NCBI GenBank assembly: GCA_029260395.1
Contig: JAJDDJ010000001.1
Span: 558,001 to 622,000 of the forward strand
Source of the DNA: Phycisphaerales bacterium
GTDB lineage: Bacteria > Planctomycetota > Phycisphaerae > Phycisphaerales > UBA1924
Length of the DNA: 64,000 nucleotides
Direction of reading: 5' to 3'
Numbering within the stretch: position 1 is the first letter of the stretch; each line of letters starts with the position of its first letter. The notes beneath the pieces are model-generated. The model searched no databases, was not told the origin of the DNA, and worked only from the letters and a program-made list of their open reading frames with translations. Positions 4,574-42,844 of the stretch are shown piece after piece. A program made the position numbers and the translations under genes.

Positions 4574-5349
4574 GCTCCGCTCTCCTTGTGCGCTCGCTCG
4601 GCAATCAGCACCGCTGAGCTTGCAACCACCGCCGCGGTCTCGATGCGCATCACGTGCGCGCCAAACGATGCGATCTGCGCGCCCGCAGCGCGGGCCCTCG
4701 CGAGTTCTTTGTCCGTCCAGCCGCCTTCGGGTCCGATGAGAAGTCGTACCGAGCCGGAGCCCGTGGGTTGATACAGCCCGCCGCTGGCATCGGCGACCAC
4801 AAGCGACGCGCCCTCCGCGGGCTCGATCGCACGCTCAAACGCGACGACCGGCGCGATCTCCATGGTCCAGGCCCGCCCGCACTGCTTGGCGCTCTCGGCA
4901 CAGATCCGTCGCACGCGGTCGAGCTTGCCGGGCCGCGGGTCGCTGACCGTGCGTTTGGTTTCGAGCGCCCGCAGCGTGGCAACGCCCACCTGGCTGACCA
5001 TCGAGGCCATCGTCTCGAACCGCTCGCCCTTAGGCACCGCGACGCACAGCTCGACCTCCGGGCTGAGCCGAGCCACACGGTGAGCCCCAGTGATGCGCAC
5101 CCCAATCGTCCATCCCCCGCCTTCTCGGGTCTTGGGCCGCTTGTCGACCTGTTCGATGACCCCCTGGCAGACCCAGCCCGAGCCGTCGAGCAACTCGACC
5201 GTGTCGCCGCCCCCGAGGCGTTTGACCCGGACCGCGTGGTGGGCCTCATCGCCCTCAAGCCACACGGTCGGTCCCGGTTGGCCCTCGGCCAGCTCAGCAG
5301 CCTCCTGCGGAGTAAGGGCTTGAGGCATGCTCATGCGATGGCTCGACAT
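4570..5349 (-). CDS. rsmE: 16S rRNA (uracil-1498-N3)-methyltransferase RsmE
   Basis: RsmE methylates N3 of U1498 in 16S rRNA using S-adenosylmethionine. The C-terminal SPOUT (knotted) domain shows the signature LLIGPEGGWTDKEL. The N-terminal RNA-binding domain carries the EAHHAVRVKRLGGGD segment (its EAHHAVRV core being characteristic). The frame is open to 5412, but the ATG at 5349 has an excellent ribosome site (GGAGGTGA, about 5 bases upstream) and gives about 259 residues, close to the family norm. It is the first gene of a two-gene unit; its stop overlaps the start of the secreted repeat protein downstream. Confidence 0.93.
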   Translation of the reverse strand: MSSHRMSMPQALTPQEAAELAEGQPGPTVWLEGDEAHHAVRVKRLGGGDTVELLDGSGWVCQGVIEQVDKRPKTREGGGWTIGVRITGAHRVARLSPEVELCVAVPKGERFETMASMVSQVGVATLRALETKRTVSDPRPGKLDRVRRICAESAKQCGRAWTMEIAPVVAFERAIEPAEGASLVVADASGGLYQPTGSGSVRLLIGPEGGWTDKELARARAAGAQIASFGAHVMRIETAAVVASSAVLIAERAHKESGA

Positions 5350-5493
5350 CTGCTCACCTCCGTCCCAACCGTTCAGCCCCCGACCGCAGGTGGGCCAGCC
5401 ACCGATCGCCAAGGCAGATTATGCCCCCTCTGGCGGGCGGGCCTTGAGTCGGTTCTCGGGCGGGCCGATGATCGTCCGAGAGCCACCGCATCC

Positions 5494-6612
5494 ATGAACC
5501 CAGCCTCCGTCCCGATCCGCAACCCCATGCCCGACAACGATGCCAACTTGGTCAGCGACACGGCCGATGAGGCCGAGGGGCTGTACGACCGCATCGATGA
5601 GCTGCTCGCCGAGATCGACGAGGCTTGCGAGATCACGTCCGACGGCTTCGATCCCGACGAGGTCGACGCCCAGTTGCCCTCTCTGTCGGACAAGGGCGAG
5701 TTGGCCGAGATCCCCGACCTCGAACTCGAGAATCCGGACCTCGATCTTGATGGCGATTTCGAAGGCGACTCGCCGGACGACCCGCTCAGCGAGATCGAGG
5801 CAGAAACACCTAGCGAATCGCCCGATGCCGAGCCGCTCGCTAAACCAGCCAACGAGCCAGCCGACGAGCTGGCCGAAGCCGCCGACACAGAACCTGAAGC
5901 AGCGACCGATGACGAGCCGTCGCAGGACGACGACCTGCTCGCCGCGATCAACGAGGAGCTTGCGCACCTCGACGATTCGCCAGAGCCCACCGAGGATGAG
6001 GCAACAGCGGAAGAACCGGTTGCCGAGGCGACTGAACCGCAACCAGAGCCATCGCCGATGGACCGGCCCGAGCCACCCGAAGAAGTGAACCCCGAAGATG
6101 TCTCGGTCGAGTTCGGCCTTGAAGACCTCGACGACATGGTCGCTGAGCTTGACGACCAGAAAGCGCCCGAGCGGAGCGTGCAGCCTAAAGGCGACCCCAA
6201 GGCCGAGCCGGAGGCAGCGCCCAAGCCGGTAGCCAAGTCCGAGTCCAAGCCATCCCCCGAGCCCGCTTCGGAACCTGAGCCTGAGCCAGCGCCCGTCGCA
6301 GCACCGGCGCCCAAGCCAGCCGCTGCGCCCGCCAAGCCCATCCCCAAACCCAAGCGTGACTTCGCGCCCGCGCTCGCGGTTGCCTATCGCGCCGGGGCGG
6401 TGACGCTATCGCCGATCGCCAAGGTGCTCGACACCCAGCCACGCATGCTCCGCGACTCCATCGGCTGGGTCGGCGCGATCACCGTGTTCTACGCGGTGTG
6501 CCTGTGGACGTACGCTCTGCTTTTCCGCGGCACATCCGTCCCCGAGCAATCGCCCCAAGGCGTGACCATCATCGGTGAGACCGCAGCGGGCAATGCAGCG
6601 ACGGGCAACTGA
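5494..6612 (+). CDS. Acidic, proline-rich protein with one C-terminal transmembrane helix
   Basis: I do not recognise a family. From ATG 5494 (alternative ATG 5527) the protein has about 372 residues. Residues 1-225 are strongly acidic (many Asp/Glu, with LLAEIDEACE and LLAAINEELAHLDD repeats of similar helical form). A Pro/Ala/Lys/Glu low-complexity linker follows at about 230-285, then a short basic helical region (KPKRDFAPALAVAYRAG). A single membrane helix lies near 327-347 (ITVFYAVCLWTYALLF), with only a short tail after it. The architecture suggests a tail-anchored cytoplasmic protein. Composition alone could produce the long antisense ORF seen here. Confidence 0.6.
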   Translation: MNPASVPIRNPMPDNDANLVSDTADEAEGLYDRIDELLAEIDEACEITSDGFDPDEVDAQLPSLSDKGELAEIPDLELENPDLDLDGDFEGDSPDDPLSEIEAETPSESPDAEPLAKPANEPADELAEAADTEPEAATDDEPSQDDDLLAAINEELAHLDDSPEPTEDEATAEEPVAEATEPQPEPSPMDRPEPPEEVNPEDVSVEFGLEDLDDMVAELDDQKAPERSVQPKGDPKAEPEAAPKPVAKSESKPSPEPASEPEPEPAPVAAPAPKPAAAPAKPIPKPKRDFAPALAVAYRAGAVTLSPIAKVLDTQPRMLRDSIGWVGAITVFYAVCLWTYALLFRGTSVPEQSPQGVTIIGETAAGNAATGN

Positions 6613-28746: not shown

Positions 28747-29163
28747 TCAGGAGACCGCGTCGGCACCCGCTTTGGCAACGGCGTGGTCGTTCTCGACCGA
28801 TGAGCCAGACACACCAATCGCCCCGACGACCTCGCCACCAAGTTTGATCGGGATGCCACCGGGGAAGCTGATGAGTCCGCCGTTGGAGTGCTCAATGTTG
28901 TAGAGCGGGCCTCCGGGCTGCGAGAGTTTGCCGATCTCGCCGGTTGGCATGTCGAACAGGCGTGCGGTGCGGGCTTTCTTGATCGCGATGTCGATCGAAC
29001 CAAGCCAAGCGCCGTCCATGCGGAAGAAAGTCTTGAGATGCCCGCCCGCATCGACAACCGCGATGTTCATCTTTGTGTCGATGGCCTTGGCCTGGTCGAG
29101 CGCCGCGTGGACCGCGTCGTGCGCCTGATCGAGGCTTAGGTCACTGGCATTGAGCGTGCTCAT
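28747..29163 (-). CDS. GlcG/HbpS-like (DUF336) protein
   Basis: The 138-residue protein matches the GlcG/HbpS family: [19 protein letters not shown] at the start, [21 protein letters not shown] in the middle, and [20 protein letters not shown] near the end. HbpS binds haem and other members occur in glycolate or diol operons; none of those partners is present here, so the role is unknown. ATG 29163 has GGAGATTCACACC upstream. There is no signal peptide, so it is probably cytoplasmic, unlike extracellular HbpS. Confidence 0.9.
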
Positions 29164-29278
29164 GGTGTGAATCTCCTGCCCGTACAACGTGTAGCAAAGC
29201 AGAGCCCAAGTATCGGCCGCTCGCGTGTAGCGGATTCTTCAGAACGTGTGACCCATGGCCGGCTCGGTCAGCACAACA

Positions 29279-31588
29279 TCAAGGTCCGAGTTCGACCAGC
29301 GTCGATTCGTAGACGTACCGCCGGGCCTCGCGTTCGACATCATCTCGGCTGATCGGGCTGGTTGCATCGAACCGCACGAACAACCGGTCTGGCAGTGCAC
29401 GAACGGAGGAAACCGTGTCGCCCTGGTCGACCATCCATCTGCGGAGCTCGCGCCCGATCGCGTTGGGATTGGACGAGGCCTCGACCTGCACGCGTCGGCC
29501 GGCTTTTTGCACACGCTGGATGAGCTTCTGCCGCTCGCCCTCGTTGAGCAGCACGCCGCTGATGCGGACGCTGTTGAGCTCGGGGACTTCTTCCACTCGC
29601 AAGCCGGCGAGGCCGGCGTAAGCCTCAACGACTTCCCGCAGCTCCGACAACGGCAGGATGAGCAGCTGCGCCTCGCTGAGCTGGCGCATGTCCTTGGCTG
29701 ACGTCGCATCCGCATTTTCCACCTGACCCACACGCAAGAGCTGCTCTTGAAAGCGGTTCTGGGTAAGGCGGGTAACCTCGAACTGGTGCTCTTCCTCGAC
29801 GAAACCCGGGGCGCGGATCAGCACGATGTGCCTGCCCAGCGGCAGCAGTTGCTCGGCGGAACCCGAGCTGTCAAGGCGGATCTGCACCCGCTCGGCCGTA
29901 TCGGCCAGAATGATCTCGACTTCCGCGTTAGGCGGCGAGACCTTGAACCGGGCCGGGAGAGAGGAAGATCGCAGCGGGATCTCCAGCACATGCGACGCGT
30001 TCGAGCCCGAGTCGCCGGTTTCCACAAACCGCTCGTATCGCTCGTGGGTCACCTCGACCTTGACCGGGCCGTAGGCCACGAGCACGTTAAACCGCCCGTT
30101 GCCGTCGGTCGTGCCAATCCCGAACTCCTCGCCGGAAGTTGGGCTGGTCACGCGGATGCGCGCATCTGGCACCGGAGGAACGGTCTGGAAGGTGAGGTCG
30201 ACGTTGACCGGGGGCAGCCGCTCGATCTTGAACCGCTTCTCCGCAGCCACCTTGCCCGCGCCATTGATCAGCGCGAGCTGGATTTCAAGCTCTCCCACCT
30301 TGGCGACCGCCACGTCTTCGACAAAGCCGCCGGTGCTCGGGTCGATGTTGAGCCTGATGGGCTCGCCGGTGGCCGTGCGCATCTCTGCGGACCACCCCTG
30401 CGGGAGGCCGACGACCCGCCCTTCCACGCTCACCAGCCCGGTGTTGCCCTGTTGGCCGGCGGGCACCTTGATCTCGTACGGGCTGCCGCCGCCGCTATTG
30501 AAGAAAATGAACCCCAGCGCACCGACCGCCACCAGCAGCACTACCGCAGCCAACGCGAGGATCATCGGCGACACGCCGGATTTCTTGGCTTCGGCCTCGT
30601 CGGCGTGCGCGCTCATGTTGGAGCCGCTGTTCGTGTTCCACGTGTTGGCCGGCGCCGCCGTTGCGGGCTTGACGACCGAGGGCGCAGCGCTCTTCTTGCT
30701 CGGTGCGCCTGCCCCACCGCCGCCACCTGTGAGTGAGGCAAGCACTTCTTCTGCGGTGCCGGCGCGCTGGTCGGGCTGCTTGGTCATCATCCAAGCGATC
30801 GCATCGGAGAGATCCTGCGGGAACCCGGGTAGCAGCTGGCTCAGGGGCTTGGCGGTCTGCTCCATCGAGCAGTGCCAGAACATCCACTTGGGCCACCGAT
30901 CGGGGCTCGAATCGTCCCACTTGGCCAGATCATCGAAGTAGATCGACGGGAACTCTGGGCGGTACTTATCCTCGCCCAGCGCGAGGTGATACAGCGTCAT
31001 GCCCAACGAGTACAGATCGGTCGAGGGCATCGCGGCCCCGAGCTGGCGGTCGAGCAGCTCGGGCGCTGCGTATTGCACGGTGAGCAGGTTGAGCGTGCTG
31101 GCCTCGTCGCGAGCAGAGGCCAACCCGAAATCGATCAACTTCCACGAACCCGAGGGCGTGCAGAGAAGGTGCGCGGGCTTCACATCGCGGTGCAGCACCG
31201 ACGGGTTGTTGTTGTGGATTGCCGAGAGCCCATGCAGAGCATCGGATGCGACCCGCCGAACAAACTTGGGGTCGGCCGGGCCGGCGGTAATGCGGGTCTT
31301 GAGGCTCTCGCCCAGGCGTTCCATTGCGAGCCACGGGCCGACCTCGTCGTCGATGCCGAAGTCGAGCATCTGCACGACATTCGGGCTCGAACCGAGCTTG
31401 ACGAGAATCTCGGCCTCTTTGCGGATCTCGTCGCGTTCCGCCGAGCTCTCGCCCACGATGCGCAGCACCTTGATGACCGCGTCTCGCGTGAGCCCCTGGC
31501 CGATCTCCTCGGTGGCGCTGTAGACACGTGCGTTGGGCGTCGAGCCCACGGGCTCGCCAAGCTGAAACTTACCGATGCGGGTCTTCAT
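29279..31588 (-). CDS. Ser/Thr protein kinase-like protein with TM helix and large C-terminal region
   Basis: The protein has about 769 residues from ATG 31588. The kinase-like domain is about 8-287: Lys40 in AVIKVLR, HRD at 133-135, DFG at 153-155 and AAPELL. The glycine loop reads VGSTPNARVY (not GxGxxG), and the metal-binding Asn after HRDVKPA is His140, so activity is doubtful. A Gly/Ala/Pro linker leads to one TM helix (about 341-364). The rest, about 400 residues, holds Ig-like or carboxypeptidase-regulatory-like beta domains and a C-terminal region with BON-like repeats (VRISGVLLNEGERQKLIQRV). It is the last gene of the Tad-FHA cluster, 92 bases after the FHA gene. Confidence 0.85.
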   Translation of the reverse strand: MKTRIGKFQLGEPVGSTPNARVYSATEEIGQGLTRDAVIKVLRIVGESSAERDEIRKEAEILVKLGSSPNVVQMLDFGIDDEVGPWLAMERLGESLKTRITAGPADPKFVRRVASDALHGLSAIHNNNPSVLHRDVKPAHLLCTPSGSWKLIDFGLASARDEASTLNLLTVQYAAPELLDRQLGAAMPSTDLYSLGMTLYHLALGEDKYRPEFPSIYFDDLAKWDDSSPDRWPKWMFWHCSMEQTAKPLSQLLPGFPQDLSDAIAWMMTKQPDQRAGTAEEVLASLTGGGGGAGAPSKKSAAPSVVKPATAAPANTWNTNSGSNMSAHADEAEAKKSGVSPMILALAAVVLLVAVGALGFIFFNSGGGSPYEIKVPAGQQGNTGLVSVEGRVVGLPQGWSAEMRTATGEPIRLNIDPSTGGFVEDVAVAKVGELEIQLALINGAGKVAAEKRFKIERLPPVNVDLTFQTVPPVPDARIRVTSPTSGEEFGIGTTDGNGRFNVLVAYGPVKVEVTHERYERFVETGDSGSNASHVLEIPLRSSSLPARFKVSPPNAEVEIILADTAERVQIRLDSSGSAEQLLPLGRHIVLIRAPGFVEEEHQFEVTRLTQNRFQEQLLRVGQVENADATSAKDMRQLSEAQLLILPLSELREVVEAYAGLAGLRVEEVPELNSVRISGVLLNEGERQKLIQRVQKAGRRVQVEASSNPNAIGRELRRWMVDQGDTVSSVRALPDRLFVRFDATSPISRDDVEREARRYVYESTLVELGP

Positions 31589-31680
31589 GCCTGTCTGGTT
31601 CCTCTCACGGGCATATGGCCCCGTGTTGTGTTCGTGAAGCGTAAGCCCGATAGCGAGCCAGAGAACGCAGAATAGGGGCG

Positions 31681-32520
31681 TTAGATTCCGCCGAACGCCT
31701 TCGAAGTGTCCTTCTTCGGCGTGCTCAACCGGTGCCGGGTGCGCACAAACCACACCAACCCCGATGCGTGCGCCGCGTCACCCGCCCACGGCATCGTTGC
31801 GGGGTCCTCTGAATCGATCGTCCCGAGATACACGCCGAGCTCCCGTCCAGTGCCCGACGCTGCAGCCGCGAAGCTCTTGTCCTTGGCCACCGGGTCCTGG
31901 AGGATCATCATGTCCTTGACGAGCTGGCCATAGGCCTTGTGGGCCGTGGCCTGCTCACCGAGAGACTCATACCGCCATGCGGATTCAAAGGCCGCACCAA
32001 GCTCCGGCGGCACCCGCTTTTCTTCGGTCCACTCGGCGATCTTTCGCTCCAGCCGGAAATACGTGCCGCCCCAGTCCGCACTTTGTTCGGCTGCCGTGAC
32101 CGGAGCGAACTTTTCTTTGAGCATCACGTTCCACAGCAAGGTGGCCGCGAAGCCAGCGCCGATTACCACCACCGCGATCAACGCGAGCACCGTGATCATG
32201 CTCCCGCCGCCCGAGGTCGAGGTCTGATCCGAGCCGACCGTCAGCACCGCGTTGGGCGCGAGCTCGACCCGGTCGCCCGGGACCACCCGCGTGCGATCGG
32301 TCAGCGGCCGGCCGTTGACCTTGGTGCCCAGGGCCGAGAGGTTCTCGCAGTAAAGCCGGTTGTCCTCGACGACCAGCACCGCGTGCTCCCACGCGACCGC
32401 CTCGTCGTCCAGACGGATGTTCGAGTCCTCGCTTCGACCAACCGAGCAACGCTGACCGTCTTCGACCGCGTACACGGTCCCGGCATCGGCGCCGAACACA
32501 ATCGTGAGGTGATAGGCCAT
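31681..32520 (-). CDS. FHA-domain membrane protein
   Basis: The protein has 279 residues. The N-terminal FHA domain (about 20-95) keeps the phosphothreonine-binding residues: Gly28-Arg29-Ser30 in VGRSED, Trp-Glu-His46 and Asn69-Gly70 in KVNGRP. A single TM helix follows at about 108-131. The C-terminal 150 residues are helical and without known domain, probably on the other side of the membrane. It sits between the tadC-like gene and the kinase-like gene, so it could be the phospho-reader of that kinase or of another. That link is inference. Confidence 0.85.
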   Translation of the reverse strand: MAYHLTIVFGADAGTVYAVEDGQRCSVGRSEDSNIRLDDEAVAWEHAVLVVEDNRLYCENLSALGTKVNGRPLTDRTRVVPGDRVELAPNAVLTVGSDQTSTSGGGSMITVLALIAVVVIGAGFAATLLWNVMLKEKFAPVTAAEQSADWGGTYFRLERKIAEWTEEKRVPPELGAAFESAWRYESLGEQATAHKAYGQLVKDMMILQDPVAKDKSFAAAASGTGRELGVYLGTIDSEDPATMPWAGDAAHASGLVWFVRTRHRLSTPKKDTSKAFGGI

Positions 32521-32548
32521 CGGACCCTCTGAGCAGGCAGCCGCCGGG

Positions 32549-33532
32549 TTACATCCCGCCGATGCCCTGCTGACTGAATTTTACTATGAACGTCGAGAAC
32601 ATCAACAACAGAATACCTACCAGCGCCAGCACCGACGGTGCCAGCACGTTGACCTTTGCCTTGCCCGCGATGTCCGCCGCGTCCTGCTTGCGACGCACCC
32701 GGATCCGCTCACCCATCCGCTCCAGCGTGTCGCTGATGCCCCGGCCGAGTTCCTCGGACTGGATGATTTCGTCCACAAAGTTGCGCACCACGGGCAGCGG
32801 GGTCCGCTCGGCCATGTTCTGGAACGCCTGCTTGCGCGGCGTGCCCGCGTTGATCTCGCGGAGCGTCACCGTGAACTCCTGGCCGATCGGGTGGTACTGG
32901 TAGTCCGCGGCCACACGCTCCATCGCCATCCCAAACGAGGCACCGGCCCGCATCGTCAGCACGAGCAGGTCGACCACGTACGGCATGCTCCGCCCGACCT
33001 TGTGCAGCCGGCCCTTGGCGATGCCCGTGAGCGATGCGCCGAACAGGTAGAACCCGGCCATTAGCCCGACCACTCCAGCGACCGTGCCTTTGATACCCAG
33101 CAGCAAGAACCCGATTCCCGAGAACGCGAGCGCTATCACCAACGACGCGCCGATCGCCGCCGCAAACAGGTCGTCTTCATCGAGCCCGCCGGGCCAGCCC
33201 GCGTCCGACGCACGCTCGCCCCAGTCCCGCTTGAGCGAGTCGATGGGGATCGCCCCGAGCGGCTTGAAGAACGGGAGCACCGTCATGCCCAGGTTGAACA
33301 CCAGCGAATCGGTCATCCCCTTGTTGACCTTGGCCATCTCTCGGCGGGCCTCGGTCAGGTGCTTGCGCGCGCCGCCCACATCGACCCGCATCGATGAGCC
33401 AACCGCGTACACCAAGCCCGCGATAGCCCCGCCAGCGCACACCGCAGCCAGCGCGGCGATCACGATGCCCATCGCCCCGAACGACGAAGCCGCCCCCGTT
33501 TCGACAGCAGCGAAGCCGTCAGACGTCTGCAT
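32549..33532 (-). CDS. tadC: Type II secretion system F-domain protein, TadC-like
   Basis: The protein has about 327 residues and is an inner-membrane platform protein. The GspF/TadC core has LVLTMRAGASFGMAMERVA, then a long helix with NAGTPRKQAFQNMAERTPLPVVRNFVDEIIQSEELGRGI. The C-terminal TM helix VLALVGILLLMFSTFIVKF is present, as are N-terminal membrane helices. ATG 33532 overlaps the stop of tadB by 14 bases and gives the best length. In Tad systems TadB and TadC form the base of the pilus machine with the ATPase. Confidence 0.9.
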   Translation of the reverse strand: MQTSDGFAAVETGAASSFGAMGIVIAALAAVCAGGAIAGLVYAVGSSMRVDVGGARKHLTEARREMAKVNKGMTDSLVFNLGMTVLPFFKPLGAIPIDSLKRDWGERASDAGWPGGLDEDDLFAAAIGASLVIALAFSGIGFLLLGIKGTVAGVVGLMAGFYLFGASLTGIAKGRLHKVGRSMPYVVDLLVLTMRAGASFGMAMERVAADYQYHPIGQEFTVTLREINAGTPRKQAFQNMAERTPLPVVRNFVDEIIQSEELGRGISDTLERMGERIRVRRKQDAADIAGKAKVNVLAPSVLALVGILLLMFSTFIVKFSQQGIGGM

Positions 33533-34397
33533 TGATGATGCTCCGTGCCCAGAGGAACCCGACCATGTAAAACCCAATCGAGGTCATCATCAAGCCGCGA
33601 CCGAGCGGCTCGGTGAACAGCATCAGCGTGCCCTCGTAGTTGATCGCCAGCATCAGCAGCAACATCGGCACCGGCGCGATGCCCAGGAACAGCAGGTTCT
33701 GCCGGCCCTCGGCCGTGGACGTGTACACCTCGTGCTGCATCTCTGCGATGGCTTCGAGCGACTGCGCCAGCCGATCCATCGTCTCCACCACATTGCCGCC
33801 CATCGTCTGGTTGACCGCGATGGTGGTCGCGAAGATGTTGAAGTTGGGCAGCTTGAGCCGTCCTTTGGCCTCAGTGATCGCGGTGAGCACATCCGAACCC
33901 GCACGCCACTGGTTGGCCATGATGCGGTACTCGGTGCGGATGGGCTCTTCGGCCCGCTCGGCGAGCCGCTCGATTGACTGCACCAGCGTTAGGCCAGACG
34001 CCACGCTGTTGGACATCGCCATGATCGTGAGCGGGAGCTGCTCGTCGATCTTGCGGATCCGCTTGTTCCACGCGTTGTTGATCAGCCAGCCCGGGACCAG
34101 CAGCGTAAGCGTCCAAAGCGCCAGCGCGATGAACTTGTTGTCGATCGCGATCAGCACGACGAACAACGCGAGCACCACGCCCGCATAGATCAGCCCCATC
34201 TGCAGCTTCACATTGCCCGGGTCGGGGCTAAAACGCTGTTTCTGCGTCGAGAGCCACGAGACGTGCGACTCCCACATGCGTTGCAGGACGCCAGCGAACG
34301 CGAGCAGCATCGCGATGAACGCGACCCCGCCGAGGATCGACACGCTCAGCGCCAGCGTCCGTTCGTCCATTCCGAAGATCGTTGCTGCGAGCGTCAC
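33519..34397 (-). CDS. tadB: Type II secretion system F-domain protein, TadB-like
   Basis: The protein has about 292 residues. It starts at GTG 34397, which forms a GTGA overlap with the tadA stop and has an excellent GAAGGAG site. The longer frame upstream is a shadow of tadA. Membrane helices are at the N terminus (ALSVSILGGVAFIAMLLAF, MGLIYAGVVLALFVVLIAI) and C terminus. The family core is QLPLTIMAMSNSVASGLTLVQSIERLAE and NFNIFATTIAVNQTMGGNVVETMDRLA. It forms a translational chain with tadA and tadC. Confidence 0.92.
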   Translation of the reverse strand: MTLAATIFGMDERTLALSVSILGGVAFIAMLLAFAGVLQRMWESHVSWLSTQKQRFSPDPGNVKLQMGLIYAGVVLALFVVLIAIDNKFIALALWTLTLLVPGWLINNAWNKRIRKIDEQLPLTIMAMSNSVASGLTLVQSIERLAERAEEPIRTEYRIMANQWRAGSDVLTAITEAKGRLKLPNFNIFATTIAVNQTMGGNVVETMDRLAQSLEAIAEMQHEVYTSTAEGRQNLLFLGIAPVPMLLLMLAINYEGTLMLFTEPLGRGLMMTSIGFYMVGFLWARSIINADV

Positions 34398-36271
34398 GCT
34401 GCGTCTCCTTCGCTGCCCGCGAACCACGCGTCCACATCGAGCAGGCCCCGCTCGACCGCGTCGCCCAGGAAGCTCGGCATGTACCCGGTCGCGGTCAGCA
34501 CCGCCTGTTCGCCCTCGCCCACCTTGCGGAAGATGTCTCGCGTCTCGACCTCGCCCGTGTGCGGGTTGAGCCCGATGACCTCGGTGATCTGGAGCGTCAT
34601 GCGCCGGCCGTTCTTGAGTCGGCCGACGAACACGATGATGTCCACCGCCTGACCGATCTGCCGACGAACCGCAGCCAGAGGCAGGTCCGCGGCCATCAGC
34701 ACCATCGTCTCGATTCGGCTGATCGCGTCCTGCGCGCTGTTCGAGTGGATCGTCGTCATCGAACCGTCGTGGCCTGTGTTCATCGCCTGAAGCATGTCGA
34801 ACGCTTCTTCGCCGCGACACTCGCCCACAACGATGCGGTCGGGACGCATACGAAGCGAGTTCTTCACGAGATCGCGGATCGTGTAGGCGCCCTTGCCCTC
34901 GACGTTCGCGGGCTTGGTCTCCAGGCTCACCACGTGCTCCTGCTGGAGCTGCAGCTCGGCCGCGTCCTCGATGGTCACGATGCGATCGTCGTGCGGGATC
35001 ATCGCACTAAGGCAGTTGAGCATGGTCGTCTTGCCCGAGCCCGTGCCGCCCGCGACGACCACGTTCTTGGGCATCTTGACGCCCGCATCGAGGAGCATCG
35101 CTGCGCCCGAGGGCAGCGAGCCCCACTTGACCAGGTCGCCGATCGTCACGCGGTGCGCGGGGAACCGCCGAATGGTCAGGCAGGGGCCTTTGAGCGCGAT
35201 CGGGGGGATCACCGCGTTGACGCGGGACCCGTCCTTGAGCCGCGCATCCACCAACGGCGAAGATCGGTCGATGCGCCGGCCAAGCGGAGCCACGATCCGT
35301 TCGATCACATTCAGCAGCGCCTCGTCGCCCAAGAACTTGCTGTCGGACTCGACCACTTGCCCGCCGCGCTCGACGTACACGAGATCGGGGCTGACGATCA
35401 TGATCTCAGAGATATTCGGCGTATCGAGCAGGTCCTGCAGCGGACCCAGCCCGAAGATCATGTCGTTGAGCACCTTCTTGAGGAACCGCGACACGACGTA
35501 CACCTGTACGTTCTCAGGCAGTTCGTTGACCATTGTGGTCATCAGCGCGTTGTACCGCTGGTCAACGATGTCCATGTCATCGGCCACAGACTTCTTCTCA
35601 AGCTTGAGCGCGAGCGTGCGCACGATGCGGTCCACCGCCTGCTCGGCCGCGGTTTCCAAGGCTGTGTTCTCGCCCGGCATCGCGTTGACCGGCTTCTCCG
35701 CCTTGGTCTCCCCGCCAAGCCTGAGCACCAGCCGCCGGCGCAGGTCCATCGACAGGAGCCGGTTGCGTACGTCTCGATCTTCGAGCACGCGGCTCTTGTA
35801 TTCGCCCTTGAGGAGCTCATCGATGATCGCGTTGATCTGTTCGAGCGTCTTGGAGCTGTGCTCCAAGCCCGACGACGAAGCCCTGCGCAAGTCGAGTTGA
35901 CGGATCACCGCGGTGTGCAGGTCCTGCTGAACCGCGTTGACGTCCTCGGCGGCGCTCGATCGGGCGACCTCCTCGGCCCCGACCTCGAACACCAGCACGT
36001 ACTGTGCGATGTGGATCTCGGCCTTGTCGGTCAGCGGCGCCGTCGCGCCGCCCTGGACCCATTCAGAGCCCACCCGCAGCGGTCTGGCGTCGGCGGACAC
36101 GCTGATCGACCAGCCTGCTTTCGCGCGGTCCACCTGCGCGTGGACCTTCGAGACCATCGCCGAATCCAGCGTGACCTCGCACGCGGCGTCCCGCCCGATC
36201 CTGAACCCCGCTTGGCCCTCGTAGGGCACGGATCGCGTGTTCTTCAATGTGTCCTGCACCACGACGCGCAT
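34394..36271 (-). CDS. tadA: TadA/CpaF-type secretion ATPase with N-terminal FHA domain
   Basis: The protein has 625 residues. The C-terminal secretion ATPase has Walker A GGTGSGKTT (about 405-413), the Asp box TIEDAAELQL, Walker B region IVVGECRGEEAFDMLQAMNTG and HSNS. The CpaF-type N-terminal region has GLGPLQDLL and EIMIVSPDLVYVER. Residues 3-97 form an FHA domain with GRDAACEV (Arg27) and a SKVHAQV strand, an addition not found in ordinary TadA. The FHA could tie the motor to phosphothreonine signals. It is followed by tadB with a 4-base overlap. Confidence 0.94.
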   Translation of the reverse strand: MRVVVQDTLKNTRSVPYEGQAGFRIGRDAACEVTLDSAMVSKVHAQVDRAKAGWSISVSADARPLRVGSEWVQGGATAPLTDKAEIHIAQYVLVFEVGAEEVARSSAAEDVNAVQQDLHTAVIRQLDLRRASSSGLEHSSKTLEQINAIIDELLKGEYKSRVLEDRDVRNRLLSMDLRRRLVLRLGGETKAEKPVNAMPGENTALETAAEQAVDRIVRTLALKLEKKSVADDMDIVDQRYNALMTTMVNELPENVQVYVVSRFLKKVLNDMIFGLGPLQDLLDTPNISEIMIVSPDLVYVERGGQVVESDSKFLGDEALLNVIERIVAPLGRRIDRSSPLVDARLKDGSRVNAVIPPIALKGPCLTIRRFPAHRVTIGDLVKWGSLPSGAAMLLDAGVKMPKNVVVAGGTGSGKTTMLNCLSAMIPHDDRIVTIEDAAELQLQQEHVVSLETKPANVEGKGAYTIRDLVKNSLRMRPDRIVVGECRGEEAFDMLQAMNTGHDGSMTTIHSNSAQDAISRIETMVLMAADLPLAAVRRQIGQAVDIIVFVGRLKNGRRMTLQITEVIGLNPHTGEVETRDIFRKVGEGEQAVLTATGYMPSFLGDAVERGLLDVDAWFAGSEGDAA

Positions 36272-36371
36272 GTTGAGCTTCCAGTGTTCTGCCGGTCTCG
36301 CCCGGCCCTACGCCGACTGCATCGGGCCAAGACCGATCGGCCCAGCCCACCGATCAACGCGCTACGCCCGT

Positions 36372-37241
36372 TCAGCCGCCAGCTGGCTGCAGGCCGCGAA
36401 GACCGCCCGCGGGGGCCGCTTCGTCGTCGCCCGGACGCTCATTGGGCCTCAGAAGCACGCGAAATTGGTTCGAGGACTCCTCGGCCAGCATCAGAGCATC
36501 CTCAAGCGACACATCCAGCGTGATCATGTCGCTCCGTTCGGCCCGTCCGCGAGCCTGCCCAATCATCGAGAGCCGGCTGCCTGCGAGGCGGTTTCCGACC
36601 GCGATAACCCGCACGTTCTCGATGATGATCTCCGAGTCGTACCCGTCCCGACCGCCCATCTCGCGGGCCATCTGGCTGAAGATGTTGCCCAGCTGCGCCT
36701 GTGCGAGCTGAGCCGTTTGCTCGTTGGTCAGTTCATCGGCATTGATGCCCGCAGCCTGGATCGGGTCCGCCCGCTTGGGCCTCATGACCACCAGATCGAT
36801 GAAATCACCGGGCATCAGCAGGCCCTGCAGGGCTGCTGCGCCGCTGACCTCAAGGGCGTACGCCCGCCGGTCAGGGGCCAAATCGATGTCCTTGGCCAGG
36901 GGGAAGTGCCCATAGGTCAGAGGCTGACCGGCCGACGCGGGCACGCCGAGCTCCCGGCCGTTGATCGTCGAGAGCTCAGAAGCCCGGACGGACGATTGGA
37001 CCAGCGCGGCGAACGTGTCACGCGGCACCGCAATAACCTTCAAGTCGCCTTCGGCATTGAGTTTATGACCTGCCGGCAGGTCTCGAATCACCTGCACAAT
37101 CTCGACGGTCTGCTCCTGACCTGTGCCGTCGGCATCGCTCGAACCAGCACCATCAAGCGTGCTCATGTAAATAAACGCGAGCAGCATGGCGAGCACGCCA
37201 AGCACCACCGCGACCAACAACATCACTCGATTGACGCCCAC
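36372..37241 (-). CDS. cpaB: Flp pilus assembly protein CpaB/RcpC-like
   Basis: The protein has about 289 residues. GTG 37241 has GGAGGG at about 7 bases. The N-terminal TM anchor is VMLLVAVVLGVLAMLLAFIY. A SAF-like domain follows (VRDLPAGHKLN-type stretch IRDLPAGHKL, then AVPRDTFAAL, GRELGVPASAGQPL), then the RcpC/CpaB core LMPGDFIDLVVMRP and IIENVRVIAVGNRL. CpaB is a periplasmic component of Tad pilus assembly. It is the first gene of the cluster, 100 bases before tadA, and lies divergent to the giant secreted-protein gene. Confidence 0.92.
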   Translation of the reverse strand: MGVNRVMLLVAVVLGVLAMLLAFIYMSTLDGAGSSDADGTGQEQTVEIVQVIRDLPAGHKLNAEGDLKVIAVPRDTFAALVQSSVRASELSTINGRELGVPASAGQPLTYGHFPLAKDIDLAPDRRAYALEVSGAAALQGLLMPGDFIDLVVMRPKRADPIQAAGINADELTNEQTAQLAQAQLGNIFSQMAREMGGRDGYDSEIIIENVRVIAVGNRLAGSRLSMIGQARGRAERSDMITLDVSLEDALMLAEESSNQFRVLLRPNERPGDDEAAPAGGLRGLQPAGG

Positions 37242-37534: not shown

Positions 37535-40500
37535 ATGCCCACCCACACGACCGATCTCAACGCCGACGCGATTTTGAATCAGACTCCTTTTGATCGCCTC
37601 AAGGCGAGGCTCAGGGCCCACTTGGCTCGCAGGCTCGTCCGATCATCCGGTCAGGCGATGAGCGAAGCGCTCGAGCCACGCCAGCTGCTCTCGACCGTAT
37701 TCGTCGATACCGATGCCACGGGCACCAACAACGGCTCGACGTGGGCGAACGCGTTCACGAGCGTTCAGGCGGCGCTCGCCGCAGCTGTCGCCGATGACGA
37801 AATCTGGGTCGCTGAGGGCATTTATACCCCCGGCGCGGGACGGTTCAACAGCTTCGCGCTCAAGGCCGGGGTTGACTTATTCGGCGGGTTCCAAGGCAAC
37901 GAGACCCTGCTTACCCAGCGGAACCCCTCATCCAACCCCACGATTCTCTCAGGCGAGATCGGAGGCGGCGGCACCGGGGACAACAGCTTCCACGTGGTCA
38001 CCGGAACTGGAAACCTCTCCGGGGCCACCATCGGCGGGTTCACCATCGCAGGCGGAAACGCCAACGGCGGTGGCAACGACTCCCAGGGCGGCGGCGTCAG
38101 GCTCCAGAACGCCACCAACGTTCAGTTCCTCGGCGACATGATCTTCAGCGCCAACAACGCCACCACGGGCGGCGGGCTCGCCCTCATCGGGGGCACCCCC
38201 GTCGTCCGAGGACGCATCCTCAATAACGTCGCCACTGGCGATGGAGGCGGCCTCTGGACCAACTCCGGCATCCCCACCATCGAGGCCAACTTTGACAGCA
38301 ACAGCGCCGCCAACGGCGGCGGCGCGTTCTGGACCCTCGGCGCTACGGGCTCGCTCCGCGCCAGCACCGTCTTCTCTGCTTCAATAAACAACAACATCGC
38401 GACCGGTCAGGGCGGCACCTTCGCCTTCGATGGAACTGCCCCCAGTTTCCCCGCCACACCCTCTATCACCAACGGCGCAGCGGGCACCAACGGCGGCGGC
38501 ATCTACGCCTCGGGCGTCACCCTCACCGGCGCGTTCAACGTCACCAACGCGACTGCGGGCACCAACGGCGGTGGCATCTACCTCGCCAACGGGGCCGCAC
38601 TCAACCTCACAGGCGGCGCAATCCTGAACAACGACGCCACTGACGGCGGCGGCATCTACGCAGGGGCTGGCACCAGCCTTTCGGTGACCAGCACCAACAT
38701 CACCGGCAACACCGCCACCAGCGAGGGCGGCGGTCTCTACACGAACCAGGTCGGGCTCTCACTCAGCGGTGCGACGATCTCGACCAACACCGCGGCAGAC
38801 GGCGGCGGCATCTACGCCATCGGTGGCACGATCACCATCACCAACTCCACCATCACCGGCAACATGGCGGCCAACGGCGGCGGCGCGATGTTCAGCGGCG
38901 GGGCCACCCCCACCTTCAGCGGCGCCACCATCAGCAGCAACATCGCCACCAACGACGGCGGCGGCATCTGGGGTTCCGGCGGCACCTTCACCCTCGGCTC
39001 GGGCAGCGGCATCACCGCCACGGGCAACACCTCCGACAACCGAGGCGGCACGCTCTTCGCTGTCAACGCCACCGTCAACATCGCCAACTCGACATTCAAC
39101 AACGGCGCCACGCCCGCACGCAACGGCATGCACGGCGGCCTCGCGGCCCTCTCAGGCGGCACACTCAACGTCTCCAAGAGCACGTTCGTTAACTTCCGTG
39201 CTGAGGGTGACGGGGCCGTGTTCTACGCCGATGCGGCCACCGTACGCGTATTCAACAGCAAGTTCCTCGGCGGCGTTGCCAAGAGCGACGGCGGAGCCAT
39301 CTCCATCAAGGGCGCGTCCACCACCACCGTCGCTGGCTCGGTCTTCAGCGGCAACTTCTCCGGCGGGTTCGGCGGTGGCATCGAAATCGGCGGCGGCTCC
39401 GCGACCCTCGTCAACAACACCGCCTCGTTCAACTTCGTTTCCAACATCGTCGCCAACGCTGTCTTCAGCGGAAACCCCGTCAACGCCAACGACCTCGCGC
39501 TGACCACCAACGGCTTTGGCGGATTCGCTGGCATCCGATCGGGTTCCAACGTGACCATCGCCAACTCCATTATCTGGGACAACACCGCCGTGCTGCCCTC
39601 GGCTGCGGTCCGCGAGTTCCAGGTCTACGTGCAGAGCGGCGCGACGGTCACCATCCGCAACTCGCTGGTTCTCGCGGGTCTGCCTACACGCGCCATCGAC
39701 GGCGGCGGCATCCAGCAGGTCGACCCCATCTTCGTTACCACCGGCGCTGTCGACGACGGCTCGGGCGCTGACCAGACACCCGGCACGCTCGACGACAACT
39801 TCGACCTCGCCACCGGCTCGACCGCCATCGACGCGGGCGACCCCGCCGACCTGCCCGCCGACTTGCTTGACGTGAACAACAACGCCAACACCGGCGAGGC
39901 TCTGCCGCAGGACATCACCGGCCAGAACCGCATCCGCGGCGTCACGCTTGATCTCGGCGCGTACGAGAGCGGCAACGCCGGCGTCACCCCGCCCGAGCCC
40001 GGCGCGCCGACGACCACCGCCCTGCGCGGCTTTAGCAGCAACAACGAAGGCAATCCGCCGAGCGACTTCTTCGCACCCGGACAGGGCTTCGACCTTGTCG
40101 CCATCGGTGTGCAGGACGGCGACGGCGACCTCGCGCGCGTCGACTACTACTTCGACTCCAACAACGACGGCGTGCTCGATGCGGCCGACATGCTGCTCGG
40201 GTCGGTCGCCTACGCGGAAGACGGCCCCGGCGGCGGTGCCAACTTCGATGCCACCATCGACGACGACGGCTTCGTCGGCACCAGCAACGTCGGCTTCGAC
40301 GGCATCGCCGACCCGATCCAGGGCGCGGCCAGCATTGACAACATCCCCGAGTCGTTCATCCTCCGCCTGAGCAACGCGCAGGTCGCTGGGTTTGGTACCG
40401 GTGTGATCCGCTTCTTTGCTCGTGGTGTCGATGCCCTCAACAACATCGGCCCCGCCGAGGAGCTTGAGGTCAACCTGACCGACGGGTCGACCGACCCCGA

Positions 40501-42844
40501 GTTCTCGCTGATCATCGGCGGCGGCGCCCAGCGGCCCATCGCCGCCCAGGTGCCGTTCCCCACGGCCGACCGGCCCGAGGTCATCCAGCTCGGCGACTTT
40601 GATGGCGACGGGCTCGCCGATGCCATCGTGACCACCGAGGCTTCGCAGAACGTCGTCACCATTTACTATGGCAACGGCAACGGCACCTTCACCGATCGCT
40701 TCGACATCGTCGTCGGACCCCGCCCCGAAGACATCGTGATCGGCGACTTCAACAACGACGGCCGGCTCGACTTCGCGACCTCCAACTGGCCCGCAGACAG
40801 GCCCGGCACGGGTTCGGTCACCATCGGGCTCAACCGGGGCGGGCGCGGCGCGGCGGCCTTCCCGAACAGCGCCGTCACCACGGTCAATGCCCGTGGGCTG
40901 CGCTTCAGCATCGATGCCGCCGACCTCGACAACGACGGCGACATCGACCTCATCTCCGCCAACTTGAACACCGACTCCACCACCGACATCTTCCTCAACA
41001 ACGGCGATGGCGTCTTCAGCCGCATCAACGGCCCCTCCGTCGGCAACATCGCCATCGGCCGCATCCGCCTAGCCGACCTCAACAACGACGGCAACACCGA
41101 CGTCATCTACACGAACCGCAGTTCGAACATCACGATCATTTACGCGCCGGGCAACGGCCCGTACGTCACCGGTTCGAGCCTCAATGTCGGCAGCACCGCC
41201 ACGGTCGCCTACCCGCAGGGCGCTAAGTCGCTTCGAGGCTTGCGTTTTGGCGATCTCAACGGCGACGGCTTTACCGACATGGTCGTCTCCAACCAGTCCT
41301 CCAACACGATCGCCGTCTACATCAACGACGGCTCGGGCGGCTTCGGTGCTGGCACGCTGTACACGGTCGGGTCTGCGCCAGAAGACATCGCCATCGGCGA
41401 CCTCAACAACGACACCGTCCCCGACATCGCCGTGGCCAACACCAGTTCGGCCAACATGACCCTGCTCACCAACAACGGCGACGGCACCTTCCAGCCGCCC
41501 GTCACCATCGTTGTCGGTGCCGGGCCAGAGGGCATCGCAATCGGGGACGTCACCAACGACGGCGCCAACGACATCGTCACCGCCAACATCGGCGCCAACA
41601 CCATCAGCTTCCTCAAGAATTCCATCGGTCGCCGTTCGGCCGTCGGCACCGAGAATGCTTCCGGCAAGAACTTCGTCGGCATCATCAACCAGACCGCTAA
41701 CCCCGTCGTGTTCGACCAGGACTCCAACGGCGACTGGTTCGCACGCCGGGTCAACACCGGCTCGGTCTTCCTCGTCGGACAGATGACCGCGGTCACCGTT
41801 GATGGCAACCAGCACTTCTTCGGCACCACCACCAACGGGCTCCGCTGGTTCTTCCCCAAGAACGACGGAACGGGCTCCTACTTTGATCTTGACCTGAGCT
41901 CCATCGCTGGCGCTCCCGGCAGCGCCGATTTTGCCTTCAGCCTCAGCAACTTCATCGACCCGCAGGGCAACCCTCACCTCTTCGGGCTCACCACCGGCGG
42001 CGACTACGTCACCGTCCGTCGAACCGGTGTCAACAACGGCAACTGGCAGTGGCAGTTTGAGAACATCTCGCAGAGCGTCCTTAACAACAACCCGGGCGCG
42101 ACCATCCCCCCGATCACCGAGTTCGAACCCTACGTCACACGCTGGAACCAGTGGGGACTCGCGGGCATCACCGATACCGGCGATGTGGTCAGTATCTGGA
42201 CCACGCCTTCGTTCAACTTCTGGACGCTCTCCAACCTCAGCGACATCGTGCGTAACCAGACCGGCGGCAACGTGTCGCTCGTCGGTGGCCTCGCCACCGT
42301 CATCACCCGTCGGTTCGACCTGCCGGCAAGCCAGCAGACCCAGTGGGACGGCATCAACATCGCCGGCCTCTCGGGCGCGGGCCATCTCCGCGTGCTCTGG
42401 TGGGCCGCCGCCAACGTCAACACCAACCCCAACGCCCTCGACTCGGGCTGGCGCATCAGCGACCTCACCGACCCGCAGGTCACTGCGCCCAACTCCAGCG
42501 CGAACGACCTTCCCGAGTTCATCTCCGATCGCGGCCTGACCAGTTACTTCACCCCGTGGGGCGGCATCAACTACGTCGGCTTCAACACCGCAGGCCAGAT
42601 CCAGATCTACTGGTGGGTGCCCGGCTTCGCGGGCCAGTACATCTCGTCCATCGTGACCGACACCCTGCCGCAGGGCACGCTCATCCCGATCGCTGACCTC
42701 AACGCGTACTCCGCACCCAACGGTGTCATCAGCGTCTTCGGCCCCGGCGAAGACGACGTCACGCTCCGCTTGTGGGTCGACCCGTTCGCGCCCGGTTCGT
42801 CGTGGGGTGTCGAGAACCTCACCGAGATCGCTCAGCGAGTCTGA
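37535..42844 (+). CDS. Giant LEPR-XLL beta-helix/FG-GAP secreted protein
   Basis: The protein has about 1769 residues from ATG 37535 (AGAGAGG upstream). Near the N terminus it has a basic helix followed by SEALEPRQLLS (LEPR at 46-49), the LEPR-XLL motif of large planctomycete surface proteins. Residues about 55-815 are a parallel beta-helix with many NGGGIY-type turns and an ending AIDAGDP...DLGAYE typical of polymorphic outer-membrane/choice-of-anchor repeats. About 1005-1365 holds FG-GAP/VCBS-type repeats (GDFDGDGLADAIV, GDLNNDTVPDIAV) of calcium-binding, integrin-like propeller form. The last 400 residues are beta-rich and unrecognised. Probably a surface adhesin or matrix protein. Confidence 0.88.
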   Translation: MPTHTTDLNADAILNQTPFDRLKARLRAHLARRLVRSSGQAMSEALEPRQLLSTVFVDTDATGTNNGSTWANAFTSVQAALAAAVADDEIWVAEGIYTPGAGRFNSFALKAGVDLFGGFQGNETLLTQRNPSSNPTILSGEIGGGGTGDNSFHVVTGTGNLSGATIGGFTIAGGNANGGGNDSQGGGVRLQNATNVQFLGDMIFSANNATTGGGLALIGGTPVVRGRILNNVATGDGGGLWTNSGIPTIEANFDSNSAANGGGAFWTLGATGSLRASTVFSASINNNIATGQGGTFAFDGTAPSFPATPSITNGAAGTNGGGIYASGVTLTGAFNVTNATAGTNGGGIYLANGAALNLTGGAILNNDATDGGGIYAGAGTSLSVTSTNITGNTATSEGGGLYTNQVGLSLSGATISTNTAADGGGIYAIGGTITITNSTITGNMAANGGGAMFSGGATPTFSGATISSNIATNDGGGIWGSGGTFTLGSGSGITATGNTSDNRGGTLFAVNATVNIANSTFNNGATPARNGMHGGLAALSGGTLNVSKSTFVNFRAEGDGAVFYADAATVRVFNSKFLGGVAKSDGGAISIKGASTTTVAGSVFSGNFSGGFGGGIEIGGGSATLVNNTASFNFVSNIVANAVFSGNPVNANDLALTTNGFGGFAGIRSGSNVTIANSIIWDNTAVLPSAAVREFQVYVQSGATVTIRNSLVLAGLPTRAIDGGGIQQVDPIFVTTGAVDDGSGADQTPGTLDDNFDLATGSTAIDAGDPADLPADLLDVNNNANTGEALPQDITGQNRIRGVTLDLGAYESGNAGVTPPEPGAPTTTALRGFSSNNEGNPPSDFFAPGQGFDLVAIGVQDGDGDLARVDYYFDSNNDGVLDAADMLLGSVAYAEDGPGGGANFDATIDDDGFVGTSNVGFDGIADPIQGAASIDNIPESFILRLSNAQVAGFGTGVIRFFARGVDALNNIGPAEELEVNLTDGSTDPEFSLIIGGGAQRPIAAQVPFPTADRPEVIQLGDFDGDGLADAIVTTEASQNVVTIYYGNGNGTFTDRFDIVVGPRPEDIVIGDFNNDGRLDFATSNWPADRPGTGSVTIGLNRGGRGAAAFPNSAVTTVNARGLRFSIDAADLDNDGDIDLISANLNTDSTTDIFLNNGDGVFSRINGPSVGNIAIGRIRLADLNNDGNTDVIYTNRSSNITIIYAPGNGPYVTGSSLNVGSTATVAYPQGAKSLRGLRFGDLNGDGFTDMVVSNQSSNTIAVYINDGSGGFGAGTLYTVGSAPEDIAIGDLNNDTVPDIAVANTSSANMTLLTNNGDGTFQPPVTIVVGAGPEGIAIGDVTNDGANDIVTANIGANTISFLKNSIGRRSAVGTENASGKNFVGIINQTANPVVFDQDSNGDWFARRVNTGSVFLVGQMTAVTVDGNQHFFGTTTNGLRWFFPKNDGTGSYFDLDLSSIAGAPGSADFAFSLSNFIDPQGNPHLFGLTTGGDYVTVRRTGVNNGNWQWQFENISQSVLNNNPGATIPPITEFEPYVTRWNQWGLAGITDTGDVVSIWTTPSFNFWTLSNLSDIVRNQTGGNVSLVGGLATVITRRFDLPASQQTQWDGINIAGLSGAGHLRVLWWAAANVNTNPNALDSGWRISDLTDPQVTAPNSSANDLPEFISDRGLTSYFTPWGGINYVGFNTAGQIQIYWWVPGFAGQYISSIVTDTLPQGTLIPIADLNAYSAPNGVISVFGPGEDDVTLRLWVDPFAPGSSWGVENLTEIAQRV
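38478..39000 (+). repeat. In-frame glycine-rich beta-helix repeat array
   Basis: Imperfect repeats encode turns such as TNGGGIYASG, TDGGGIYAGA, ADGGGIYAIG, ANGGGAMFSG and NDGGGIWGSG at spacings of roughly 20 to 33 residues. They share GGCGGCGGCATCTAC-like DNA but have variable spacing. They are coding repeats of the giant protein. Confidence 0.8.

Follow-up and report, generated by a model that had tools for sequence, protein, structure and literature searches.

A Tad-type motor cluster of a Phycisphaerales bacterium encoded together with FHA proteins and its own membrane kinase

In the type VI secretion system (PpkA/Fha1) and in mycobacteria (PknB/FhaA), a transmembrane Ser/Thr kinase and an FHA protein control an envelope machine. 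The FHA domain sits on an adaptor in these systems, and the machine is unrelated to Tad. The motor of the type VIIb secretion system is an FtsK-type translocase. It likewise carries an N-terminal FHA region, which is bound without phosphorylation by the transmembrane pseudokinase YukC/EssB (PMC9600267). For the type VI system, contact-phosphorylation has been noted (PMC8460266). Tad systems have been described as using one bifunctional ATPase, and those whose ATPase is fused to an FHA domain form class III CpaF, described as mostly betaproteobacterial (PMC12019362). Moreover, the Kil system of Myxococcus xanthus has an FHA-fused KilF, extra FHA proteins and Tad genes distributed over two clusters (PMC8460266). 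Little is understood of the way in which outside signals switch on the motors of type IV filaments; the presence of an FHA domain on Tad motors has been noted at least twice, but no role has been assigned to it.

We analysed a stretch of 64,000 nucleotides (the window) from a Phycisphaerales bacterium whose assembly comprises 3.22 Mb and is 93% complete. Positions 29279-37241 of its minus strand carry six genes:

36372-37241, minus strand: cpaB/rcpC, 289 aa, GTG start at 37241; RcpC/CpaB (PF16976, 2e-12), TIGR03177 above cut-off (NCBIfam)
34394-36271, minus strand: FHA-tadA, 625 aa, a single ORF; T2SSE (PF00437, 5.9e-58) and FHA (PF00498, 1.3e-4)
33519-34397, minus strand: tadB, 292 aa; T2SSF (PF00482, 2.2e-14)
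32549-33532, minus strand: tadC, 327 aa; T2SSF (PF00482, 2.6e-15)
31681-32520, minus strand: FHA-TM protein, 279 aa; FHA (PF00498, 4.3e-12)
29279-31588, minus strand: receptor-like Hanks-type transmembrane kinase, 769 aa; Pkinase (PF00069, 1.6e-29)

The kinase start was placed by homology at the ATG at 31588 and not at the longer ORF start at 31753. tadA overlaps tadB and tadB overlaps tadC, and the gaps measure 28 bp (tadC to FHA-TM), 92 bp (FHA-TM to kinase) and 100 bp (cpaB to tadA). Coordinates and Pfam matches thus bear out an earlier note on this DNA, which had described six genes on one strand with short gaps or overlaps; it was also right that the cluster holds no pilin, secretin or prepilin peptidase. 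Over the whole genome, Pkinase matches above the cut-off number 17 (one in about 190 kb) and FHA matches eight (one in about 400 kb), so that two FHA domains and one kinase within 7 kb are not due to chance. Just downstream of the kinase lies a small minus-strand gene (28747-29187) whose sequence resembles GlcG/HbpS-type proteins.

Like class III CpaF, the window TadA combines an N-terminal FHA domain (about residues 1-97), a linker (about 100-240) and a CpaF ATPase (275-547) in one chain (PMC12019362). FHA-fused Tad ATPases have already been described (PMC12019362, PMC8460266), which corrects the earlier note. The new part is the kinase, not the FHA domain. The FHA-TadA loci of Pseudomonadota seen here lie next to a secretin, with no kinase inside 8 kb, whereas those of Phycisphaerae nearly always carry a kinase. 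With EssB/YukC and EssC/YukB of type VIIb secretion the cluster shares a motor ATPase with an N-terminal FHA domain and a transmembrane protein of kinase fold. It differs in that the window motor is of the Tad/T2SSE type, its FtsK_SpoIIIE match being below the cut-off, and in that EssB is a pseudokinase whose docking is independent of phosphorylation (PMC9600267). Finally, unlike in PpkA/Fha1 and PknB/FhaA, the FHA domain is on the motor itself.

To place the cluster in context we surveyed homologous loci, all counts of which are non-independent owing to common descent. The order found in the window, cpaB-FHA.tadA-tadB-tadC-FHA.TM-kinase, is identical in 9 of 9 loci of this kind (type a), the window's own among them, and L201-L203 repeat it. 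A paralogous, class-wide form of the system (type b) has the order tadA2-flp-tadV-tadE-KINASE-tadG-tadE-x-cpaB-FHA.tadA-tadB-tadC-FHA.TM; two genomes (G023 and G053) contain both types. In type c the downstream position is taken by a soluble kinase, which has a GYF_2 domain in the one member scanned. The checks set by the earlier note thus turn out in its favour: FHA, Tad and kinase genes occur together in fixed order in Phycisphaerae. A kinase is found within the fetched stretch of 38 of 40 FHA-TadA loci of this class, but of only a single one among 20 TadA loci of the classical, secretin-bearing type (Fisher p 2e-12, indicative only since loci share ancestry). The two exceptions have their kinase at the end of another contig (G011) or 74 kb away (G078). 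Tad loci that generally lack FHA and kinase genes do exist in the class, but these are the classical ones: 17 of the 20 have a secretin within 8 kb, none has an FHA gene and the sole kinase lies in the flank. Elsewhere in the phylum we checked 19 FHA-TadA loci, 16 of which have Tad neighbours. A kinase is nearby in 12 of the 16; at L209 the sole kinase lies in the flank on the opposite strand, and none was seen in the neighbourhoods of L208, L214 and L219. The other three FHA-TadA genes (L211, L215 and L217) have no recognisable cpaB or tadB/C neighbours.

The secretin, the pilin and TadV are encoded elsewhere in the source genome, at a partner locus (G000:C9, L039). It encodes a TadG-like protein, TadE, a prepilin peptidase, an Flp-like pilin, another ORF of pilin size, a secretin, a TPR protein and a further TadA, termed TadA2. 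Profile matches are clear for Secretin (6.4e-39), Peptidase_A24 (6.3e-14) and TadE (7.3e-7) and weak for Flp1_like (0.0016) and Tad (0.015); the secretin, of 683 aa, also matches STN (1.4e-5) and Secretin_N (5e-4), and its N0 match is weak. The components of a Tad (Flp) pilus are therefore divided between the window (TadA, TadB, TadC, CpaB) and L039 (secretin, pilin, TadV, TadE/TadG). The two halves lie next to each other in G023 and G412, in convergent orientation. Moreover, G424 (L199) has a single array in one direction, tadA2-flp-tadV-tadE-tadG-x-cpaB-FHA.tadA-tadB-tadC-FHA.TM-kinase, which is the whole system minus the secretin. Because the halves adjoin in the former two genomes and form one array in the latter, we regard the window cluster as half of one Tad apparatus.

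TadA2 (L039:10252-11316) is a 354-aa TadA without an FHA domain. Its Walker A motif is intact in the source genome, as in most copies inspected; the check was a simple text match, which missed the site in a few TadA2 copies. In most relatives TadA2 lies in the same array as FHA-TadA, and in the source genome at the separate partner locus. In the ATPase tree it belongs to a separate clade (35 rows, support 100) with members in Planctomycetota and Myxococcota. TadA2 is thus a candidate second Tad motor, which most likely would serve the same filament as FHA-TadA; this suggests that some Tad systems work with a pair of TadA-type motors, as opposed to the single bifunctional motor described so far. 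Proteins of the TadA2 clade measure about 350-396 aa and co-occur with FHA-TadA in Planctomycetota and Myxococcota.

In the same tree the Planctomycetota FHA-TadA proteins form one clade (48 rows, support 100), which includes one MAG labelled Deltaproteobacteria (L060). The kinases of these loci fall into two clades, one of types a and c (97/97) and one of type b (98/99), and almost every other kinase sampled from the genome lies outside them. Kinases of types a, b, c and of Pirellulales lie on the same side of the kinase tree, the deep split having a weak bootstrap (60/100). The differing architectures had raised the idea that each lineage recruited its kinase separately; this is disfavoured, since types a and c group together with good support. 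The pairwise distances among FHA-TadA proteins and those among kinases correlate strongly (Mantel r (Spearman) 0.885, n=43, reached by 0 of 2000 permutations), shared species history contributing to the value. FHA-TadA has thus been co-inherited with its own membrane kinase across Phycisphaerae, and the link is real.

The window kinase consists of a kinase domain (1-299), a linker, one transmembrane segment (343-361), a beta-sandwich ectodomain and a C-terminal alpha/beta part. Its AF2 model (mean pLDDT 73) is PknB-like (6i2p_A, Z 20.5, rmsd 7.6, 232 aligned), although this whole-kinase search is dominated by the kinase domain. The ectodomain gives Foldseek matches to Ig-like/CnaB-type adhesins such as 6fwv, which are suggestive only. 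The VAIK Lys, HRD Asp and DFG Asp expected of an active Hanks-type kinase are present, and K40, E58, D135, K137 and D153 are invariant in 9 of 9 type-a kinases. The glycine-rich loop of the window kinase is degenerate, and in this kinase only, His140 replaces the catalytic-loop Asn kept in eight type-a relatives. Type-b kinases retain their catalytic residues. In type c, the L047 kinase (5289-6515) has lost the HRD Asp and is a pseudokinase; the FHA domain of its TadA also lacks the Ser. A PP2C_2 phosphatase partner was sought in the source genome and not found.

Scanning the cytoplasmic segments for conserved threonines revealed one Thr that all 28 type-b kinases share. It lies in the otherwise unalignable, disordered linker between kinase domain and membrane, 10-19 residues before the transmembrane segment, and its usual surroundings are T-A-x-[LIVM]-P-[KR], often TAPLPK. 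The pattern T-x-x-[LIVM]-P occurs in 27 of these 28 linkers (2.1 expected by shuffling). As it had been discovered in these very sequences, we retested it on further type-b loci, where it is present in 25 of 25, again against 2.1 expected. It is absent from all 9 type-a kinases and from 10 other transmembrane kinases, and kinases outside type b mostly lack it. Among the proteins of the system it is confined to the kinase: 25 of the 29 kinases encoded at type-b loci have the strict form TAx[LIVM]P, and so does at most one member of any other component. In the linkers of type-a TadA and FHA-TM, no Thr proved to be conserved at 80%. Classical FHA ligands have an aliphatic residue at pT+3, so the motif has the shape of an FHA ligand and is a predicted docking site, in which the Thr would be phosphorylated.

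The residues by which FHA domains contact phosphothreonine are Arg, Ser and Asn. In nearly all type-b systems at least one FHA domain retains the full site, be it that of TadA, that of the FHA-TM protein or both, and which of the two is complete follows lineage, implying few events. In type a, the three residues are complete in neither FHA domain: the window TadA-FHA keeps Arg27, Ser41 and His44 and has lost the Asn, and the window FHA-TM protein keeps Arg and His, with Ser and Asn replaced. The latter protein has its FHA domain at the N terminus, a transmembrane segment at about 111-129 and a helical C-terminal domain (AF2 pLDDT 83.9). Its fold matches 3gqs_A (Z 18.0, rmsd 1.1, 97 aligned), the helical domain being barely covered by the search.

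These data lead us to favour, with some confidence, the view that the window encodes the motor half of a Planctomycetota Tad-type filament apparatus under kinase-FHA control of its own, most likely with two motors, whose filament is gated by the docking of an FHA domain onto phosphothreonine. The single-pass kinase would sense something outside through its ectodomain and (auto)phosphorylate the Thr in its juxtamembrane linker. The FHA domain of TadA or of the FHA-TM protein, depending on lineage, would then grip this residue and dock the TadA ring beneath the TadB/TadC platform, which would allow the filament to be assembled or worked on signal. One motor would be the FHA-TadA of the window, the other the short TadA2 of the partner locus. 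The wider family is most simply explained by a signal-dependent dock between motor and kinase. The more far-reaching version is about evenly balanced between right and wrong: that the two-motor Tad is phospho-switched throughout Planctomycetota by a T-A-x-[LIVM]-P juxtamembrane phosphothreonine that docks the FHA domain of the motor or its membrane partner and so gates assembly, and that in the window branch this switch is on its way to becoming a dock that is either weakened or fixed. The family supplies a named kinase, a candidate phosphosite motif and a reader domain, and with them a directly testable question. Our literature search, which covered few subscription papers, found no account of a dedicated Tad kinase, of the linker motif or of two TadA motors, and a search for kinase-linked Tad in Planctomycetes gave nothing relevant.

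The earlier note had proposed that kinase-FHA signalling controls the assembly or activity of this motor. As far as sequences can tell, this is well supported across the wider family, in which the Thr motif is conserved and nearly all type-b loci have one canonical FHA domain. For the window copy itself phospho-control appears doubtful, because the motif is absent, both FHA sites are incomplete and the kinase has His for Asn; this branch probably uses a weakened or phosphorylation-independent dock. The same features favour the strongest alternative, a scaffold in which the kinase domain docks the FHA domain of the motor directly and catalysis is unimportant, as when YukC/EssB binds the FHA region of YukB/EssC without phosphorylation (PMC9600267); the loss of the HRD Asp in L047 points the same way. 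However, all nine type-a kinases retain the Lys, the C-helix Glu and the Asp of both HRD and DFG, and type-b kinases keep both catalytic residues and Thr motif, which makes a scaffold rather unlikely, though still the best of the competing explanations.

Another reading concerns the role of the machine and is compatible with either mode of control, namely that it is a Kil-like apparatus for contact-dependent killing. As in Kil, there is an FHA-fused motor, an extra FHA protein and a set of Tad genes split over two loci, KilF being FHA-fused and Kil rich in FHA proteins (PMC8460266). In addition, Myxococcota FHA-TadA is sister to the Planctomycetota clade, albeit with weak support (89) and in a tree from which M. 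xanthus KilF is absent. Kil, however, is described as having only one ATPase, no TadG and a short secretin that lacks N0, and the text of the Kil paper does not mention a kinase (PMC8460266). Here we find a second TadA, which would act on the same filament, TadG-like genes and a 683-aa secretin with STN, Secretin_N and a weak N0 match, and we consider a Kil-like role improbable. Least probable is that the operon kinase regulates other processes of the cell and the FHA domains read other kinases: the genome has 16 further kinases above the cut-off, but the fixed adjacency, the separate clades of these kinases and the strength with which they co-diverge with the motor speak against it.

Phospho-gated docking of the motor thus remains our preferred reading for the family. 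Two other genes of the source genome deserve mention. A 788-aa ORF at G000:C13:176854-178455 (L184) combines FHA with a T2SSE ATPase of the PilB/GspE type and is a second FHA-motor fusion of this genome. On the plus strand of the window (37658-42844), divergent from the Tad operon, lies the gene for a surface protein of 1728 aa with FG-GAP repeats, which bears a LEPR-like motif at its N terminus. The nearest relative has a homologue (L194 2-1171; 45% over 337 aa) that likewise diverges from cpaB.
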